The translations under genes were made by a program, and so were the position numbers. Below the pieces are notes generated by a model. That model saw only the letters and a program-made list of their open reading frames with translations, was not told the origin of the DNA and searched no databases. Positions 4,726 to 61,224 of a stretch of 64,000 nucleotides of DNA are shown piece after piece (position 1 is the stretch's first letter; each line of letters opens with the position of its first letter). Source of the stretch: Sphingobacteriales bacterium (lineage in GTDB: Bacteria; Bacteroidota; Bacteroidia; Chitinophagales; CAIOSU01); contig JAIXOI010000009.1 in NCBI GenBank assembly GCA_027486795.1, positions 86,147 through 150,146 of the forward strand, written 5' to 3'.

Positions 4726-4756
4726 GCTAGCAATGCTTATCAATACATAATTTTTT

Positions 4757-4796
4757 ACCAATCAACCAGTGAACCAATGAACCAATCAACCCAGTA
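4757..4796 (+). repeat. five degenerate 8-bp tandem words (ACCAATCA family)
   Basis: The sequence divides into ACCAATCA, ACCAGTGA, ACCAATGA, ACCAATCA and ACCCAGTA, a clean period of 8. The third unit supplies the ATG (4777) of the downstream oxidoreductase, and the next units encode its residues Asn-Gln-Ser-Thr-Gln. This is one of several word-type repeats in the window. Confidence 0.75.
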
Positions 4797-14437: not shown

Positions 14438-14440
14438 TTT

Positions 14441-14553
14441 GGTTATTGGTTTACCCGTTATTGGTTATTAGTGCCTTTTAGTTTCTCTGTGTGTTATCTT
14501 AAATTTATTTTAGCGATTGGTTAACCCTAATTAACAGATAACCAATAAACTGA
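14441..14553. repeat. degenerate GGTTATT words in inverted arrangement
   Basis: The left part reads GGTTATT, GGTTTAC, C, CGTTATT, GGTTATT (14441-14469). The right part (14515-14553), read on the minus strand, has words such as ATAGTTA, ATCAGTTT, ATTGGTTA and TCTGTTA. The two blocks lie about 45 bases apart between the convergent corA and fmt genes and may pair imperfectly. No other terminator is visible for either gene. Confidence 0.5.
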
Positions 14554-49151: not shown

Positions 49152-49233
49152 AGGAGGTAAAGTAAAAGTTTTCCGGCCACCAATGCAACAGGTTTGTGCA
49201 ATTTACAATAAAAAGAGAAAAGCAGCAAGGATG

Positions 49234-49397
49234 TTAATTGGGTAGTTTGGTAATTTGAAAATTTGAAAATAATCAGGTAACGATGTGGTTATCCAAATTA
49301 TCATTATTCGCTAAACGTGAACACTGCAACATAAAGATGGTGTCCAATCAATTTTCAAATTTTCAAATTGGCCAATTTTCAAATTCCTTAATTGTAC
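49234..49397. repeat. degenerate 8-bp words in an inverted pair
   Basis: Left block (49234-49273): TTAATTGG, GTAGTTTG, GTAATTTG, AAAATTTG, AAAATAAT. Right block (49350-49397): AATTTTCA, AATTTTCA, AATTGGCC, AATTTTCA, AATTCCTT, AATTGTAC. The right block is the inverted form of the left word. Its last unit holds the stop codon and the last codon of the barrel gene that ends at 49388. Confidence 0.65.
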
Positions 49398-54208: not shown

Positions 54209-56491
54209 TCAGAATGATAACGATAAAGATAGGCTAGGTAGTATAGGCAGTTGATTTACTCTGGTGTATCTAACTCTGTCAAAGTAGAAAATATTGTCGC
54301 GGTTGTAGGCATTTGTTACGCTTGCCGAAATCTTCATCGACATATATTTTCCTAAGGCTATTTCCTTTTGTATAGCTAAGTCTAACCGGTGGTATGCTGG
54401 CAATCGGCCTGCATTTAACTCTTCCTCGTATATTACCCCCAAGCTGCCATTGGCATTGGTGTAATTGGTGTTTACGCCGCCGTTAAAGTTAACTTGCTCG
54501 TAAAACGATTGGGTGCGGGTAAACGGAAAGCCCGAGCCAATGTTATAGCGCACACTGGCCTGCCACGTAAGCGATTTGCCAAAAGTATATGCGGCTACAA
54601 AGTTGGCGTTGTGCCTGCGGTCGTAAAACGGATAGTAGGTTTGTTTACCATCAAATCTATTTACCCAAGCCAATGAATAGGCACCATAGAGCATCCAGTT
54701 CTTGTTTTGGTACTTCATCATAAAATCTATGCCATAGGCTTTGCCGGTTTCGAGCATATAGTCCGATTCGGTAGCAAATAGCTTGTCGCGATTAAGGCTT
54801 ATCAACTGGGTAAACCATTTGTAATATCCTTCAACGTTTAGGGTTAGGTTGTTGGTTATATCGGCTTCAAAACCCGCTATAGCATGCCAGGCTTTTTGCA
54901 GCTTGTGGTTGGCCTGGCTTCCGTCAGGGCGAGTAAGCTCTTCTTCGGTACCCGATAGGAAACCGTTGAACAAATCAACCACATCTCTGTCCGCTCGGCT
55001 GCTTATTAAATTTTGAGAGTACAAGCCACCAGCGGCCTTCAAGCGGAAGCTATTGTGTACGTTGTATTTAATACCCAACCGTGGCTCAACGGATATATTG
55101 GCCAGTGAGGCATAATAGTCGAAACGAATACTTGGGTCAAGCACTAGTTTTTTGGCAATAACCTTCCTGAATTTGAAGTAAAGGCCTAACTCGGTAGTGT
55201 TTTGTGTTTCACTGCTAATGGTGCCAGTACTATTGTAAAAGCGGTAATCGGTTTTAAAAGCATTTACGTTTATACCGTAATCAAATTGACCTGCTGTTAC
55301 AAAATAAGTAAAGTTCATGTTTACGTTTAAGCCGCCTACCGAGCTTTCACGAGGCTTATCGTCAGCCTCTTGAAGGGCTATTTTGTAGTTAGTGTAGCCA
55401 ACTGTACCGTTCATTAATAGGTTTGAACCGCCGGGCACCAATACAAAATTGGTACCTATGCCAAAGGAGTTCCACTTGTATTTAGCGATACCTTGGTAGT
55501 TGGCCAAATCGTTGAAGTTGAAACCAAACAACGTTATTTTAGAACCGTTGCCACCAGTGTAAGCCAATTTGCCATAAAAATCGGCAAATGAGAAGGGTAT
55601 ACCATTATCGCCTTCTACATATTTATATAGCGCCTTTGAGCTTTTATCAAGGTATGAGTATCGTCCGGAGAGCACATAAGTTAGGCTGCTTCCATTGTCT
55701 TTTTGTTTTACTAATGGGCCCTCTAAAATTACCTTTGCCAGAAACGGACTTACACCTATTTTGCCGGCAGTACGTTTTTTATTGCCATCCTGCATACGCA
55801 CATCCATTACCGCTGACAGCCTTCCGCCATACTGAGCGCCGAAACCACCCGTACTAATGTCAATGTTCCGTACTAAGTCGGTTTCGAAAACCGAAAACAA
55901 ACCAATGGAGTGAAACGGGTTGTATATCAATAAGCCATCTAACAGCACCCGTGTTTGTATTGGCGAACCCCCGCGAATGTATAATTGCCCTCCTTGGTCG
56001 CCGGTAAACACTACTCCAGGCATTACTTGCAGGTATTGTGCAACATCGGGCTCGCCGCCAACCGATGGTATTTGAGATATTTCTTTTGTAGTGATGCGCA
56101 CATGCGAAACATCAACCTCAGTTTGTTTTTTCTCTTTTTCGGCAGAGACGTTTACCACATCTAGCATAATGTCGTTCAACGCTAGGTATAGGTTTTGGCT
56201 TACTATTTGCCCTTTTTTTGTAAGTGTGAATTCTACCTCCATGGTATCGTAGCCGAGGGTGGTGCTTACCAAGGTGTAAGTGCCCAGCGGCACATTGGGT
56301 ATAGCATAGAAACCGTTGATATCGGTAGTGGTACCACGGGTAGTACCCTTAATATACACGTTCGTAAATATCATAGGCTCGCCATTGCCCTTGTCGTAAA
56401 CAGTACCGCGTACGGTGCCATCTTCTTGCGCTACTGCTGCTGTGGTAATGCCGAAAATTAGGAGCAATAAAGCCCAAAAACGTATAGTCAT
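54209..56491 (-). CDS. TonB-dependent receptor heading the TPR/barrel operon
   Basis: The 760-residue receptor has a signal peptide (IRFWALLLLIFGITTAAVAQ), a regulatory-like domain (VRGTVYDKGNGEPMIFTNVY, TTTDINGFYAIPNVPLGTYT), a plug (SQIPSVGGEPDVAQYLQVMP, GGQLYIRGGSPIQTRVLLDG, IDISTGGFGAQYGGRLSAVM) and a barrel ending PSLSLSLSF. It differs from the two tandem receptors near 30 kb: it belongs to a smaller group with the GG-x-P-x-Q plug motif. The gene directly precedes the large TPR gene, and no SusD-like gene is present. A role in nutrient import or in anchoring an envelope machine are both possible. Confidence 0.88.
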   Translation of the reverse strand: MTIRFWALLLLIFGITTAAVAQEDGTVRGTVYDKGNGEPMIFTNVYIKGTTRGTTTDINGFYAIPNVPLGTYTLVSTTLGYDTMEVEFTLTKKGQIVSQNLYLALNDIMLDVVNVSAEKEKKQTEVDVSHVRITTKEISQIPSVGGEPDVAQYLQVMPGVVFTGDQGGQLYIRGGSPIQTRVLLDGLLIYNPFHSIGLFSVFETDLVRNIDISTGGFGAQYGGRLSAVMDVRMQDGNKKRTAGKIGVSPFLAKVILEGPLVKQKDNGSSLTYVLSGRYSYLDKSSKALYKYVEGDNGIPFSFADFYGKLAYTGGNGSKITLFGFNFNDLANYQGIAKYKWNSFGIGTNFVLVPGGSNLLMNGTVGYTNYKIALQEADDKPRESSVGGLNVNMNFTYFVTAGQFDYGINVNAFKTDYRFYNSTGTISSETQNTTELGLYFKFRKVIAKKLVLDPSIRFDYYASLANISVEPRLGIKYNVHNSFRLKAAGGLYSQNLISSRADRDVVDLFNGFLSGTEEELTRPDGSQANHKLQKAWHAIAGFEADITNNLTLNVEGYYKWFTQLISLNRDKLFATESDYMLETGKAYGIDFMMKYQNKNWMLYGAYSLAWVNRFDGKQTYYPFYDRRHNANFVAAYTFGKSLTWQASVRYNIGSGFPFTRTQSFYEQVNFNGGVNTNYTNANGSLGVIYEEELNAGRLPAYHRLDLAIQKEIALGKYMSMKISASVTNAYNRDNIFYFDRVRYTRVNQLPILPSLSLSLSF

Positions 56492-56679
56492 ATCCTATTA
56501 ATTCTACACTTAAAAATCAAGTCGTGAAATTAGGTAGAATTCCGCTAACATCAGGGCAGTGGTTTTAAACAATCGACAAACTGTTTGTGTAAAAAAATAG
56601 GTAGTTGGACGTTTCTTTACGCCATCTCAGTAAAGGATGGGTGCTATAAATTCTAAAATCTGATTTGCAACAGCGGGTG

Positions 56680-57345
56680 TTACATTTTGAACACTGCCGT
56701 ACCCATATTAGCTGCGGCCTCAGCATCTTCAGGAAACAGGTGTGGGTAGTGGTTGCGCAATACTTGTATCATGTATTCGCGAGGTAGGTCAGGGTATGTG
56801 CCGTGGTAATATACATACTCCATAAATTTGCCTCCCTCGCCGTCGTTCTCTTGAAAAATAGAATCATCAATGCCATTAAACTCTAAAGGTGCTACATTTA
56901 ACTTCTCGCAAAGCTCTTTGTTGAATGCTGGTGTGGCTTTCACCCATTTGCCATTCAAGTACAACTCTACATAACCATGCAGAGCCATAACATCTGATTG
57001 CAATACTTGCATCAGTTTGCCCGTGCCTACATGGTTTTTTACATCGGCAAAACCAAAACGGCTAGGTATGCCCAATACGCGAGCACAAGCTGCCATAATG
57101 TTGGCTTTTTCTACACAGTAGCCATATCCTCGGGCCAGCGCAGTACTCGCTTTTAAGCCATGCTCGCTTAAGTCTACTTCGTAAGGGTTGTAAGGGAACT
57201 TATCGCGCACGGCATAATACAACTTCACGGCCTGTTCAACAGGATTAGTAATCGTACCCACCGCTTTGTAGGCAAAAGCTACAATGTTGGGGTTGTCGCT
57301 ATCCACAAACGCGGTAGCATCCAAATATTTACTAAAGTCTTCCAT
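56680..57345 (-). CDS. transglutaminase-like cysteine protein
   Basis: The 221-residue protein has the transglutaminase/protease core: LYYAVRDKFPYNPYEVDLSE, the catalytic Cys in ARGYGYCVEKANIMAACARV near residue 77, and His in LHGYVELYLNGKWVKATPAF near residue 125. The third catalytic position, usually Asp in the W-V-x-x-D context, reads KATPAF, so the acidic partner is replaced or shifted. There is no signal peptide, so it is cytoplasmic. It starts 3 bases after the asparaginase-like gene and likely acts in the same process, perhaps on peptides or amides. Confidence 0.83.
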   Translation of the reverse strand: MEDFSKYLDATAFVDSDNPNIVAFAYKAVGTITNPVEQAVKLYYAVRDKFPYNPYEVDLSEHGLKASTALARGYGYCVEKANIMAACARVLGIPSRFGFADVKNHVGTGKLMQVLQSDVMALHGYVELYLNGKWVKATPAFNKELCEKLNVAPLEFNGIDDSIFQENDGEGGKFMEYVYYHGTYPDLPREYMIQVLRNHYPHLFPEDAEAAANMGTAVFKM

Positions 57346-57348
57346 CCG

Positions 57349-57858
57349 TTATTGTGAAACCTTTGCAGGGTCATTTAGTTCCTCGAAATAGCCAGTACGT
57401 TTGTTTTTGCGAACGTTATCGGCCGTATAAAACTTTCCGTTCATTGCTATGTACACGCCGTGGGGCAATATTTGCACGAAGGCTAATGTGCTACCTAGAT
57501 TAAAGAGCCCATCGCTGCTACCGAACTTATAGGGCATCATAGCTCCGGTAAGCACAATGGTTTTAGGTAATTGTGCCGCGGCAAGGGTTTTGGCGGTGTC
57601 TACCATGGTGTCGGTGCCATGTGTAATAACTATTTGCTCATCAACACAACGTTTGCAGTGCTTTACTATCAACTCGCGATCCTCTTCTGTCATTTCCAGA
57701 CTATCAATCATCATCAAGGTGCGAATGTTTACATCCAGCGTGCAGCGCCCAAGTTTAAAAATTTCGGGTAGGTGCGTATCCTTAAAAAACAAGCGGCCGT
57801 TGATGATGTCGTATTCTTTATCAAACGTACCGCCAGTAACAAATACATTAATAGGCAT
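57349..57858 (-). CDS. single-domain asparaginase-like protein
   Basis: I start it at the ATG at 57858 (PINVFVTGGTFDKEYDIING), where family homology begins; the frame is open 28 codons further through the heptamer repeat. The 169-residue protein has the first catalytic Thr in VTGGTFDK and the second with Asp in ITHGTDTMVDTAKTL near residue 84, plus VLTGAMMPY and SSDGLFNLG. It corresponds to the N-terminal domain of type I L-asparaginase without the C-terminal domain that helps build the usual active site, so activity or partner is unsure. It precedes the transglutaminase-like gene by 3 bases. Confidence 0.83.
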   Translation of the reverse strand: MPINVFVTGGTFDKEYDIINGRLFFKDTHLPEIFKLGRCTLDVNIRTLMMIDSLEMTEEDRELIVKHCKRCVDEQIVITHGTDTMVDTAKTLAAAQLPKTIVLTGAMMPYKFGSSDGLFNLGSTLAFVQILPHGVYIAMNGKFYTADNVRKNKRTGYFEELNDPAKVSQ

Positions 57859-57895
57859 GAAAATAGAGTTAAGGTGCTGTAAAGTTATGCTTATT

Positions 57896-57972
57896 GGTCG
57901 ACGGTCCATAGTCCGTGGTCCATAGTTTTTATTTTTTACCATGGTCTATCGACTATAGACCATGGACTATTA
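57896..57972. repeat. inverted pair of degenerate 7-bp words between divergent genes
   Basis: Left: GGTCGAC, GGTCCAT, AGTCCGT, GGTCCAT, AGTTTTT (57896-57930). Right: ACCATGG, TCTATCG, ACTATAG, ACCATGG, ACTATTA (57938-57972), which is the same word family read on the other strand. The phase of 7 is kept in each arm. The pair lies exactly between the divergent asparaginase and glycosyltransferase promoters and could form an imperfect cruciform. Confidence 0.8.
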
Positions 57973-57983
57973 ATACAATTACT

Positions 57984-57991
57984 TATTTTTG
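57984..57991 (+). promoter_or_regulatory. -7 element TATTTTTG of the GT2 gene
   Basis: This exact TAnnTTTG ends 7 bases before the ATG at 57999 (10 before the second ATG at 58002). It implies a leaderless or near-leaderless transcript. Confidence 0.55.
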
Positions 57992-57998
57992 CCCTGCT

Positions 57999-58748
57999 AT
58001 GATGAACGGTAAAAAAGTAGTGGTAGTATTGCCTGCCTATAATGCGGAGCTTACACTGGAAAAAACATACCGCGAAATTCCTTTTGATATTGTAGACGAC
58101 GTAGTGTTGGTGGATGACCATAGCACCGACGCTACTTCGCAGCTTGCCCGCAAATTAGGTATAAAGCATGTGGTGCGTCACGAGAAAAACCGAGGATACG
58201 GTGGCAACCAAAAAACTTGCTACAAAACCGCCCTTGAACTGGGTGCCGACATTGTGATTATGGTGCACCCCGACTACCAATATACCCCATTGTTGATACC
58301 GGCCATGGCCAGTATTATTGCCAACGATTTGTATCCAGTGGTTTTAGGTTCGCGTATATTGGGTAATGGTGCCTTGAAAGGCGGTATGCCCGTTTATAAA
58401 TACATTGCCAACCGCTTGCTTACCTTTACCGAGAACGTGCTTACAGGCCAAAAACTTTCAGAATACCACACGGGTTACCGAGCGTTTAGCAAAGAAGTGC
58501 TGACCAAATTGGATTTGGAAATAAATTCCGACGATTTTGTGTTCGATAATCAAATGCTATCCCAGATTATTTATGCAGGTTTTGGTATCGGTGAAGTAAC
58601 CTGCCCAACCAAATATTTTGCCGAGGCTAGTTCCATTAACCTTCGCCGCAGCACTATCTATGGTTTTGGGGTTTTAGGGGTAAGTGCTAAACACTTTTTG
58701 CAGCGCATAGGCTTGGCTAACTTTGCCATGTACAAGGGTTTGAAATAG
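57999..58748 (+). CDS. family 2 glycosyltransferase
   Basis: The protein (249 residues; 248 if the second ATG is used) is a GT-A fold sugar transferase related to dolichol-/polyprenyl-phosphate sugar synthases. Motifs: KVVVVLPAYNAELTLEKTY at the N-terminus, VVLVDDHSTDATSQLARKLG near residue 40 with the nucleotide-binding Asp residues, HEKNRGYGGNQKTCYKTAL, and IVIMVHPDYQYTP in the DXD position. No C-terminal membrane helices are present, unlike full-length DPM/GtrB types. The open frame upstream to 57915 runs through the heptamer repeat and its promoter, so I do not use it. Confidence 0.9.
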   Translation: MMNGKKVVVVLPAYNAELTLEKTYREIPFDIVDDVVLVDDHSTDATSQLARKLGIKHVVRHEKNRGYGGNQKTCYKTALELGADIVIMVHPDYQYTPLLIPAMASIIANDLYPVVLGSRILGNGALKGGMPVYKYIANRLLTFTENVLTGQKLSEYHTGYRAFSKEVLTKLDLEINSDDFVFDNQMLSQIIYAGFGIGEVTCPTKYFAEASSINLRRSTIYGFGVLGVSAKHFLQRIGLANFAMYKGLK

Positions 58749-58802
58749 TTTTTGCCATTCGCACCGCTGAGGCGTTATATTTACTTACCAATCATCAATA
58801 TT

Positions 58803-60044
58803 ATGCAAGCCACCATTATTACCATTGGCGACGAATTGCTTTATGGCCAAACTATTGATACCAACTCGGCGTATATGGGCCGCGAGCTGGCGTTGTTAGG
58901 TATTCGTGTAAGAGAAATACTATCTATAAGTGATGATAAGTCGGCTATACTGGAGGCACTTGCTCGCGCTGAACAGGCTTCAAGCTTGGTTTTAATAACT
59001 GGTGGCCTTGGCCCAACAAAAGATGATATTACCAAAGTTACTCTAGCTCAATATTTTAATACTACTTTGGTGCGCAATCAGGAGATATTGGCACAGCTGG
59101 AAGCCTTTTTTGCCAGCCGAAATAGGCCAATGTTGCAATCGAATGCCGACCAAGCTTTAATGCCAGCAAGTTGCACACCATTGCGCAACGATAGGGGAAC
59201 GGCTTGGGGTATGTGGTTCGAAAAAAACGGAAAAGTATTTGTATCGATGCCAGGAGTGCCTTTTGAGATGGAGGCTTTGATGCAACAAGAGGTGTTGCCA
59301 AAAGTGAAGACCTATTTTAAACTGCCAGTAATCATACATAAGCACATTCTAACCGCTGGCATTGGAGAGTCGTTTTTAGCAGAGCAGATTGCCGATTTTG
59401 AGGATAACCTCCCCACCAATATTAAGCTAGCTTACTTGCCGGGAATTGGTTCAGTGAAACTACGTTTAACCGCAAATGGCACAAATAGGGAAGTGGTGCA
59501 AGAAGCCCTAGATACCGAAGTGGCCAAGTTGGTAGCCCAAATTGATAAGCACATTTACGGTTATGACGACGACCAATTAGAAGAAATAATCGGAAAGCTT
59601 CTAACTGCAAAAGACAAAACCTTAGCCACCGCAGAGAGTTGCACTGGAGGCTATATTGCCAGCCAAATAACCATGGTTGCAGGTAGCTCGGCATACTACA
59701 ATGGAAGCGTAGTGAGCTATACTTACGAATCGAAGCAAGCATTGTTGGGTGTAAAACAAGAAACACTGGATAGCTTTGGTGCTGTAAGCGAAGAAACCGT
59801 AAGAGAAATGTTGCTTGGGGTGTGTACCAAGTTTGGCACCGATTATGCCATAGCTACTTCGGGCATTGCCGGACCTGCAGGTGGCACTCCTGATAAACCA
59901 GTGGGCACAGTATGGTTGGCCTATGGTTCGCCAACCGATATGCGCACCAAGAAGCTAACTTTTAAAGGCAACCGTAAACAAAACATACAGCTTACGGCAC
60001 TTATGGCACTAGAATTGTTTAGAAAATACCTGATTGAAATTTGA
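58803..60044 (+). CDS. cinA: CinA family nicotinamide-nucleotide amidohydrolase / damage-inducible protein
   Basis: The 413-residue protein has an N-terminal MoCF-like COG1058 domain (ATIITIGDELLYGQTIDTNS, LVLITGGLGPTKDD, VFVSMPGVPFEMEALM) and a C-terminal PncC domain (TLATAESCTGGYIASQITMV with the catalytic Ser near residue 283, YYNGSVVSYT, ATSGIAGPAGGTPDKPVG). The family splits NMN to nicotinic acid mononucleotide and recycles ADP-ribose-type by-products. I start at the ATG at 58803 because the family begins there. The TGA stop at 60042-60044 falls inside an octamer repeat that extends past the gene. Confidence 0.94.
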   Translation: MQATIITIGDELLYGQTIDTNSAYMGRELALLGIRVREILSISDDKSAILEALARAEQASSLVLITGGLGPTKDDITKVTLAQYFNTTLVRNQEILAQLEAFFASRNRPMLQSNADQALMPASCTPLRNDRGTAWGMWFEKNGKVFVSMPGVPFEMEALMQQEVLPKVKTYFKLPVIIHKHILTAGIGESFLAEQIADFEDNLPTNIKLAYLPGIGSVKLRLTANGTNREVVQEALDTEVAKLVAQIDKHIYGYDDDQLEEIIGKLLTAKDKTLATAESCTGGYIASQITMVAGSSAYYNGSVVSYTYESKQALLGVKQETLDSFGAVSEETVREMLLGVCTKFGTDYAIATSGIAGPAGGTPDKPVGTVWLAYGSPTDMRTKKLTFKGNRKQNIQLTALMALELFRKYLIEI

Positions 60045-60062
60045 AAATTTGGAAACCTGCCT
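60031..60062 (+). repeat. degenerate 8-bp words spanning the cinA stop
   Basis: TGATTGAA, ATTTGAAA, ATTTGGAA, ACCTGCCT (60031-60062) follow an 8-bp phase and carry the last codons and stop of cinA. A further TAATTTGAAAATG lies at 60081-60093, after a GCC-GAAA-GGC hairpin. The word matches the AATTTGAAA family near 49.3 kb. Confidence 0.5.
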
Positions 60063-60200
60063 GCCGAAAGGCTGGTGTGCTAATTTGAAAATGACCAGCT
60101 GTTTAAATGGTAGGGGCAATGAAATTGGGAAAACATTCGTTTTTGTAAAGTTTAGGGTCTGTAGGTTATTCTAAATATCATCAGGGATAATGCTTCTTTT

Positions 60201-60235
60201 GTCTCATGTCTTATGTCTTGTGTCTTGAGTCTTCG
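60201..60235 (+). repeat. five degenerate 7-bp words, GTCTTNN family
   Basis: GTCTCAT, GTCTTAT, GTCTTGT, GTCTTGA, GTCTTCG stand in an exact period of 7 with a constant GTCT core. They lie just before the promoter of the gene at 60256. Confidence 0.85.
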
Positions 60236-60243
60236 GTAATAAC

Positions 60244-60251
60244 TAACTTTG
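60244..60251 (+). promoter_or_regulatory. -7 element TAACTTTG, leaderless gene
   Basis: This exact TAnnTTTG is followed by CCCT and then the ATG at 60256, identical in layout to the arfB promoter. Confidence 0.6.
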
Positions 60252-60255
60252 CCCT

Positions 60256-61224
60256 ATGAAATACATTTGTTTGTTGATGGTGTGGTTGCCACTTTTTGCC
60301 TTTGGGCAAGGCAAGGGCGGTAAAAAGAGCCCAACTAAAGGTAAGGTTGAACTCACCCCAGAAAACAGGGCAAAACTGCTTCAAGTAGAAGAAACCTTGA
60401 ATCCGCTGTCTTATATCATGTTTGGCGATACAAACAATCTAAACCGGATGAAGGCCTGCTATGCTTTTATTCCCAAGTTTGTAGAAGCATTAAAAGTGCC
60501 TGGTTCTTTTGCTTATCCGTTCGATTCGGTACCTATTCTATCCATTTTGTACCCAACCGATAGTAGTTTTAGGGTAATAACATGGCAGGTATCTTTAGAG
60601 GGTGGGGCATATCGCTACTTTGGTACCATACAAATGAACAATGGCAAAGACTTGAAGCTCTACCCGCTTATTGACCGAACTGATTCCATTGCAAGTCCTC
60701 AAGATACGCTACTATCGCCTAGTTGCTGGTATGGCGCATTTTATTATAACCTTATTGAAACCAAAGCTAAAGGCAAAACTTATTACACGCTGTTTGGCTT
60801 TGATGGTAACGATTTGTATAGCCGTGTAAAGGTGATGGATGTGCTGCATTTTGATGAAGGTAAGCCTGTATTTGGTGCCCCAATATTCGATATACCCGAT
60901 ACCATTACCGAGACGTTTCCGTACCCGGTAACCAAGCCGCAGACTAGGTTTCTGGTTTATTATAAGTTTGATGCCAAGCTTACGCTCAATTATAACCCCG
61001 ATGACAATATCGTGGTGTTCGACCACATTAAGTCTATCTCAGATTTTGGAAAAGATATACCGGTTTCGTTGATACCCGATGGCAGTTACGACGCTTTTGA
61101 ATGGAAAGACGGAAAGTGGAAGTACATATCTAATGTATATCTGCTTACTATTGATAGGGGCAACCCGCCGCTGCCTCAACCATCTACTAATGTGCATGGC
61201 GATATAAACCAAAACAAACCTTAG
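60256..61224 (+). CDS. exported protein of unknown function
   Basis: The 322-residue product has a signal peptide (KYICLLMVWLPLFAFGQ), a basic Gly/Lys stretch (GKGGKKSPTKGK), then a globular beta-rich body: SPSCWYGAFYYNLI, TYYTLFGFDGNDLYSRVKVM, TRFLVYYKFDAKLTLNYNPD, VVFDHIKSISDFGKD and FEWKDGKWKYISNVYLL. It ends in a Pro/Asn-rich tail. I do not recognise the family, though the layout recalls conserved Bacteroidota envelope proteins. It looks leaderless and ends overlapping the convergent OstA-like gene by 3-4 bases. Confidence 0.75.
   Translation: MKYICLLMVWLPLFAFGQGKGGKKSPTKGKVELTPENRAKLLQVEETLNPLSYIMFGDTNNLNRMKACYAFIPKFVEALKVPGSFAYPFDSVPILSILYPTDSSFRVITWQVSLEGGAYRYFGTIQMNNGKDLKLYPLIDRTDSIASPQDTLLSPSCWYGAFYYNLIETKAKGKTYYTLFGFDGNDLYSRVKVMDVLHFDEGKPVFGAPIFDIPDTITETFPYPVTKPQTRFLVYYKFDAKLTLNYNPDDNIVVFDHIKSISDFGKDIPVSLIPDGSYDAFEWKDGKWKYISNVYLLTIDRGNPPLPQPSTNVHGDINQNKP

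Follow-up and report, generated by a model that had tools for sequence, protein, structure and literature searches.

The spacer between two divergently oriented genes of a Sphingobacteriales bacterium, in a 64,000-nucleotide stretch of contig JAIXOI010000009.1 (the window), holds a block of 7-bp units at positions 57897-57973. The units form two arms in inverted orientation. The left arm (57897-57926, plus strand) reads GTCGACG, GTCCATA, GTCCGTG, GTCCATA and a final GT, giving the word GTCNAYR. The right arm (57939-57973, minus strand) reads CCATGGT, CTATCGA, CTATAGA, CCATGGA and CTATTAA, the reverse complement of the GTCNAYR word with a degenerate last unit, and a T-rich loop (57927-57938) separates the two. 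To the left lies an asparaginase-like gene (57349-57858, minus strand, ATG at 57858), which encodes 169 amino acids and matches PF00710 with the N-terminal domain only. To the right lies a GT2 glycosyltransferase gene (57999-58748, plus strand, ATG at 57999; PF00535) encoding 249 amino acids. A first-pass annotation of the sequence had placed a 7-bp-phased inverted pair between these two starts, which our analysis confirmed. It had counted five heptamers in each arm, whereas we find four clear units per arm and, on the right, the additional degenerate CTATTAA. As detailed below, intergenic repeats of this class are dispersed throughout the genus, and the block is one such copy.

Taken alone, the window is weak evidence for the word; the strong part is the genome-wide evidence. 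Within the window, Tandem Repeats Finder scored the block's word at 32 with a minimum of 30, which is weak alone, and a loose word pattern had 11 matches against 6.0 expected, a number reached by 7 of 100 shuffles. Across the block's own genome (G000), a strict pattern gave 12 matches at 8 places and its reversed control none. A looser pattern with 3 mismatches gave 163 matches per strand against 47 for the control; this pattern matches its own reverse complement, so that the same places are counted on both strands, and matches overlap within arrays. The genus set comprised five genomes (G000-G004), and G005 and G006 represented other genera. A 29-base pattern ending TCCATGGA was found with 1 mismatch in all five genus genomes and in none of 55 others, two of which belong to other genera of the family. 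Triplets of a second word, GTTRCGR, occurred in 5/5 genus genomes and 1/35 others, and octamers of the AATTTGAA kind (1 mismatch) in 5/5 and 4/35. The window itself has inverted octamer arms of this kind at 49235-49394 (spacer 49152-49387), with a similar pair in G001 and shorter arms in G004. At least nine repeat words coexist in the same genome; these nine were picked after the arrays had been seen, and 67 of 212 arrays fit none of them. Eight of the nine, on inspection including the window word, have no run of three G, while GTTRCGR can have one when its last base is G. Segments of period 7 and 8 numbered 49 in 542 kb of the G000 genome, which extrapolates to some hundreds of arrays genome-wide.

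Periods 7 and 8 stand out in intergenic DNA (array score thresholds ranged from 8.5 to 12 among our analyses). We sampled 464 kb of G000, consisting of the window and 20 stretches taken at regular steps on three long contigs, of which 43.4 kb is intergenic. At score 12, the intergenic part yielded 20 segments at period 7 and three at period 8, the rest falling at 14, 16, 21 and 24, with two exceptions to multiples of 7 or 8 (one at 15 and one at 22). Periods 4-6 and 9-13 gave no intergenic segment at this score, and order-3 Markov sequences gave nearly none. In the coding DNA of the same 464 kb, periods 7 and 8 were absent; periods 6, 9 and 12 had four segments each. When the score was lowered to 10 over 542 kb, 38 segments were found at period 7, 11 at 8, five at 15 and none or one at each of 4-6 and 9-13; those outside 7 and 8 lay at periods 5, 11, 13, 15, 22 and 23 (1, 1, 1, 5, 1 and 2). 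In a scan at score 9, a few segments lay at 4, 5, 12, 13 and 15 (1, 1, 3, 2 and 6). Period-7 segments at score 9 were also present in the sister genomes G001 (5), G002 (19) and G004 (6). Among the other genera, G005 had none at 7 and one at 8, and G006 one at 7 and four at 8. In 200 kb of Escherichia coli K-12 (111 spacers) no segment was found at period 7 or 8. A wider sample consisted of 72 of 79 named loci (L142-L220; seven shorter than 6 kb were dropped and N-bearing spacers excluded), nearly all with titles naming Bacteroidota or one of its subgroups, and one record titled Leptospiraceae (L153). It gave 28 segments at period 7, 15 at 8 and one to five at each of 4-6 and 9-13, and arrays occurred in 25 of the 72 loci.

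A full copy consists of two arms built from one word and inverted relative to each other with fixed polarity. Each arm has about four to five imperfect units when these are 7 bp long, or about four when they are 8 bp long. The loop is usually not common to other copies, and single arms also exist. Four or five units were present in 81 of 121 period-7 arrays (41 and 40, respectively), and four units in 19 of 41 period-8 arrays. We located 134 arrays in 407 spacers of four genus genomes. Gene orientation matters little for their presence: arrays were found in 49/250 co-directional, 15/58 convergent and 27/99 divergent spacers. Of 45 within-spacer array pairs at score 15, 23 were inverted repeats of each other and 3 direct, compared with 3.8% and 3.6% of between-spacer pairs. 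G-rich arrays lay nearer the left gene (62 versus 17) and C-rich arrays nearer the right gene (67 versus 16; Fisher p 2e-14), a rule followed by 129 of 162 skewed arrays. The named loci showed the same polarity (35 versus 9; p 1.5e-4), and there 7 of 16 pairs at score 13 were inverted and one direct. The window word has no G-C skew, and its orientation is defined by GTC versus GAC. Among 30 same-word pairs sharing a spacer, covering nine words, 28 were arranged '+-', two '++' and none '-+' or '--'. The '+' sign was assigned on the basis of pairs seen before, and the pairs include some interspecies orthologues, so the telling point is the constancy within each word. The median distance between an array and the gene end closest to it was 4 bp for 3' ends (76 arrays) and 41 bp for 5' ends (86 arrays). 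Two individual loci deserve mention. At L109:6083-6223, a convergent gene pair has AGTATCA arms no more than about 2 bp from either gene end, with a near-perfect terminator-like hairpin in the loop. At L113:1132-1342, an outer AGTATCA pair encloses, by eye, an inner GTACGAR pair.

Relatives carry arrays of other words at the same places. At the window spacer, GTCNAYR arms are present in G000 and G003 and GTTRCGR arms in G001, G002 and G004. The flanking sequence and the promoter boxes are largely conserved. T-runs are present in the loops of G000, G001 and G004, in the latter two (by eye) between arms of the other word. As three of the five genomes agree on it, GTTRCGR is the likelier ancestral word here. 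The first-pass annotation had considered a repeated protein site the less likely explanation, and a protein operator conserved base by base is indeed unlikely, three of the four sister genomes having another word. At a second spacer (G000:C52:3525-3879), arms of AGTATCA in G000 correspond to GTTRCGR arms in G003 and G004. The right arm in G001 is nearly letter-identical to that of G000, its left arm was not detected, and no array was detected in G002. Judging from this one arm in G001, AGTATCA is probably ancestral at this site. A third case of replacement was seen by eye at 14438-14553. G003 thus agrees with G000 in the word at the window spacer but with G004 in that at the second, a pattern that suggests recombination between close strains. 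Unit number also changes: the differences at 60045-60276 are 7-bp steps, and L113:7949-8060 shows one of 21 bp. At window positions 60195-60233, an array of TCTTATG/TCTTGTG heptamers lies just upstream of a TAACTTTG box, with unit-step length differences in G003 and G004. G001 has a spacer shorter by 115 bp, and the array was undetected there.

We lean towards reading the block as a dispersed spacer repeat that acts, if at all, on the DNA level, varies in steps of 7 bp and undergoes replacement in place, and not as a regulator tailored to the asparaginase-like and GT2 genes. Arms would grow and shrink by unit steps through slippage, selection would keep them out of genes and promoters, and copies from elsewhere would replace pairs in place. 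Spacers prone to form hairpins or cruciforms may perhaps break and be repaired from other copies. Slippage combined with replacement from other copies is the likeliest dynamics, although it is unproved.

Several observations weigh against this reading. No source copy and no copying enzyme were identified. Plain slippage accounts for neither the same-word inverted pairs nor their polarity, and with words this short, the simultaneous replacement of two arms would be hard to achieve by known gene conversion. A weak lean towards the same polarity is also present in array-free spacers (86 versus 65 of 157). Replacement was seen at two spacers and in one further case by eye, and array presence seems to be kept while words change, which could mean function. 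Among 99 orthologous spacers of G000 and G004, 19 had arrays in both genomes, two in G000 only, one in G004 only and 77 in neither. This comparison covers the 99 of 265 spacers with an ortholog in part of G004; five loci had been chosen for holding arrays, and L046 and L047 lie inside L248, so that double counting of their spacers is possible. One G000-only spacer, 49152-49387, has short arms in G004, and the other is 4726-4776. A bolder extension, which we think quite doubtful, is that a process in Bacteroidota, and perhaps in other heptamer-bearing phyla, writes short inverted pairs of a 7- or 8-nt word into spacers and can overwrite both arms of a pair already there with another word. For such a process, unit length, a copy number of about four and polarity would matter, and letters and loop would matter little.

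The main rival is a structural function that any word could fill. All that would be required of the spacer is the ability to adopt a hairpin or cruciform structure of about 30 bp, for example as a barrier separating adjacent promoters or as a supercoil absorber; selection would keep a pair in particular spacers, with its word changing through replacement. We regard this as unlikely. It would fit the occurrence of arrays in the same spacers of G000 and G004 (three spacers had them in one genome only), the enrichment of inverted orientation, and the position of arrays near gene 3' ends, which leaves room for promoters at 5' ends. It would also fit the better folding of the inverted layout in the window than of a direct one. 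As RNA, the 77 bases fold at -28.1 kcal/mol (z -4.1, with none of 200 dinucleotide shuffles as good), and as DNA they reach z -5.1 (again 0/200). Making all units direct cost about 10 kcal/mol, and 0.3% of such trials folded as well as the native RNA. Mixing unit orientation gave an equal fold in 4% of trials and permuting the letters inside the word in 2.7%, the latter partly because the word is nearly self-complementary (CYATRG plus W). For the same reason, the inversion of the arms, correctly described in the first-pass annotation, is partly built into the word. However, when heptamers were permuted within arms, the RNA fold was equal or better in 80% of 300 trials, and pooling units across arms gave as good a fold in 26%. 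Unit orientation and a near self-complementary word therefore matter for folding, and unit order is irrelevant. Nor is complementarity kept up: inverted similarity was 0.73 within a pair and 0.72 between same-word arms of different spacers (mean percentile 0.49, 22 pairs), so that paired arms resemble each other no more than they resemble arms from other copies. A structural role is further disfavoured by the similar array density between convergent, divergent and co-directional genes, and by the number of spacers in which at least two arrays were detected, only 41 of the 91 that bear any. The stepwise hairpin preferred in the first-pass annotation is weakened by the permutation of heptamers within arms, which corresponds to the annotation's own refuting condition of folding no better than shuffled words, and by the lack of maintained pairing of the arms; in its favour, the block folds better than dinucleotide-shuffled, direct and letter-permuted versions. 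Its accompanying argument, that a 7-bp phase does not match the helical pitch, carries little weight, because three units span 21 bp, or two turns of B-DNA. Fold-back copying between the arms, which we also considered, is left unsupported by the comparison of arm similarity within pairs and between copies.

A mobile element of the MITE or REPIN kind, with arms acting as terminal inverted repeats read unit by unit by a trans-acting transposase, seems improbable. REP sequences and REPINs, with their RAYT transposases, are short, dispersed, intergenic inverted pairs whose arms are palindromes without a 7-bp phase. The arrays resemble them in being short, dispersed and inverted; they differ in their 7-bp phase, and the hairpins of the Y1 transposase genes that we inspected are different. 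Dispersed words, fixed polarity and nested pairs such as that in L113:1132-1342 would suit such an element, as would Y1 matches above the cut-off in seven of seven genomes and the location of one Y1 gene inside a GTTRCGR-bounded spacer (L256, with a similar case in L254). On the other hand, G005, which lacks period-7 segments, also has a Y1 match. A comparison of 247 spacers returned 10 spacer pairs with common non-array DNA (E 1e-4), one of them with arrays in both, although loops of a few dozen bases could escape this search. In five aligned spacers examined by eye, and not by a systematic test, neither a target duplication nor a clean empty site was seen. We rejected a direct RAYT/REP link: the 22 Y1 matches are spread over 7/7 genomes, and the flanks of eight Y1 genes show other hairpins. 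Non-coding heptamer arrays occurred in 7 of 16 Y1 loci, with an inverted pair around the gene in L256 and L254 only. In these two (L256:1333-2197 and L254:1425-2241), an IS200-type Y1 gene with its own hairpins sits inside a GTTRCGR-armed spacer, the left arm being weak in L254. In L253 and L260, perfect hairpins such as AACCGTTTTAACGGTT and CCACGGTTGAAACCGTGG, REP-like by eye, flank Y1 genes.

The immediate surroundings of the block bear on a regulatory role. Boxes resembling TAnnTTTG, which we take to be the -7 box motif, lie about 10 bp outside each arm and mark putative promoters. The box of the GT2 gene, TATTTTTG (57984-57991, plus strand), is kept in all five aligned genus genomes; that of the asparaginase-like gene, TAACTTTA (57880-57887, minus strand), reads TAACTTTR in four of the five and TAACTTCA in G002. 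The promoter elements described in the first-pass annotation are supported by these boxes and not by a sigma-70 scan, which gave a single site at 57693-57665 and none at the block. An operator or enhancer, in which a regulator reading 7-bp-spaced units controls both promoters, would make sense of arms ending about 10 bp from both putative -7 boxes and of units with a constant core and variable positions. We consider it very unlikely: sister genomes carry another word while the GT2 box is kept in 5/5 and the other box in 4/5, and spacers between convergent genes, which should lack promoters, have arrays about as often as those between divergent genes.

Both putative promoters have the arms on their upstream side, and the transcripts of the two genes should therefore not include them. 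A transcribed RNA hairpin or terminator is the least credible explanation, for although the folds beat dinucleotide shuffles and direct-repeat and letter-permuted versions, unit-permuted versions fold equally well, the block lies outside both expected transcripts, no terminator-like site was found in 57300-58400, and an Rfam scan of 56400-59400 (E up to 1) gave no match. A base-paired RNA regulator of both genes is likewise disfavoured by the order-free folding, the lack of extra similarity between paired arms and the other word in sister genomes. An intrinsic terminator was rejected, with none found in 57300-58400 and the block placed between divergent starts. A coding reading was also rejected. 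An open reading frame from 57942 runs through the left arm, and sister genomes have another word in that stretch, which makes 57858 a likelier start of the asparaginase-like gene than 57942. Gene calls were made with a simple script, which had placed this start at 57909, inside the left arm. Telomerase-like templated addition was attractive because of the polarity, but PF00078, the sole reverse transcriptase model used, matched in one of seven genomes (G000) and not in the array-bearing G001-G004. The window loop seems, by eye, to outlive the word change, which also weighs against such addition.

The layout of the block places it with known heptameric repeats, of which it is a variant in its number of words, few G-tracts and pair replacement. 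The accessible parts of Rehm et al. 2015 (PMC4692102) describe GGGNATC-type heptamer repeats of Xanthomonas and Nostoc that are dispersed, intergenic and preferentially of four units. Xanthomonas has 70 and 75 convergent pairs, always one per strand, and Nostoc few pairs. A repeat lies nearer its 5' neighbour gene irrespective of gene orientation, and among relatives repeat lengths vary while the single or pair type is usually kept (PMC4692102). There, each genome has one kind of G-rich word, read as a quadruplex former and under-represented between divergent genes (PMC4692102). Judged against those parts, our arrays share the unit length, the intergenic imperfect tandem structure, the number of about four units and the position rule, and with Xanthomonas also the convergent pairing. 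They differ in having nine or more words and also 8-mers, mostly without G-tracts, in not being rarer between divergent genes, and in the other-word pairs at the same place in relatives. With eight of nine words lacking a run of three G, quadruplex formation is not general.

The TAACTGA repeats of Beggiatoaceae, as far as the accessible text of MacGregor 2015 (PMC4679880) goes, use one word in direct repeats, with one indirect repeat in the main genome, mostly just upstream of start codons, and a role in translation was proposed. For Gramella forsetii, A. sublithincola and Elizabethkingia, the same text reports spacers with direct repeats of other heptamers (PMC4679880). The block shares intergenic heptamer arrays with these repeats and differs in word and layout. 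According to PMC4679880 and PMC4692102, Mrazek et al. 2007 reported an excess of 7-nt units in long simple sequence repeats, and slippage involving a polymerase contact of 7 nt was proposed. In the parts available, those descriptions say nothing of inverted pairs, polarity or the replacement of words, and they leave the excess unexplained. No description of inverted heptamer pairs of many words was found in the open-licence literature searched. A genus with many parallel words, fixed-polarity inverted pairs and pair replacement separates the candidate causes: simple slippage does not yield inverted pairs, and pairing within the stem is not maintained. With close strains of the genus, the mechanism would become directly testable. 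We finally observed that two convergent spacers, L101:15500-15819 and L107:11389-11538, have about 121 bp in common at 73% identity, outside their arrays.
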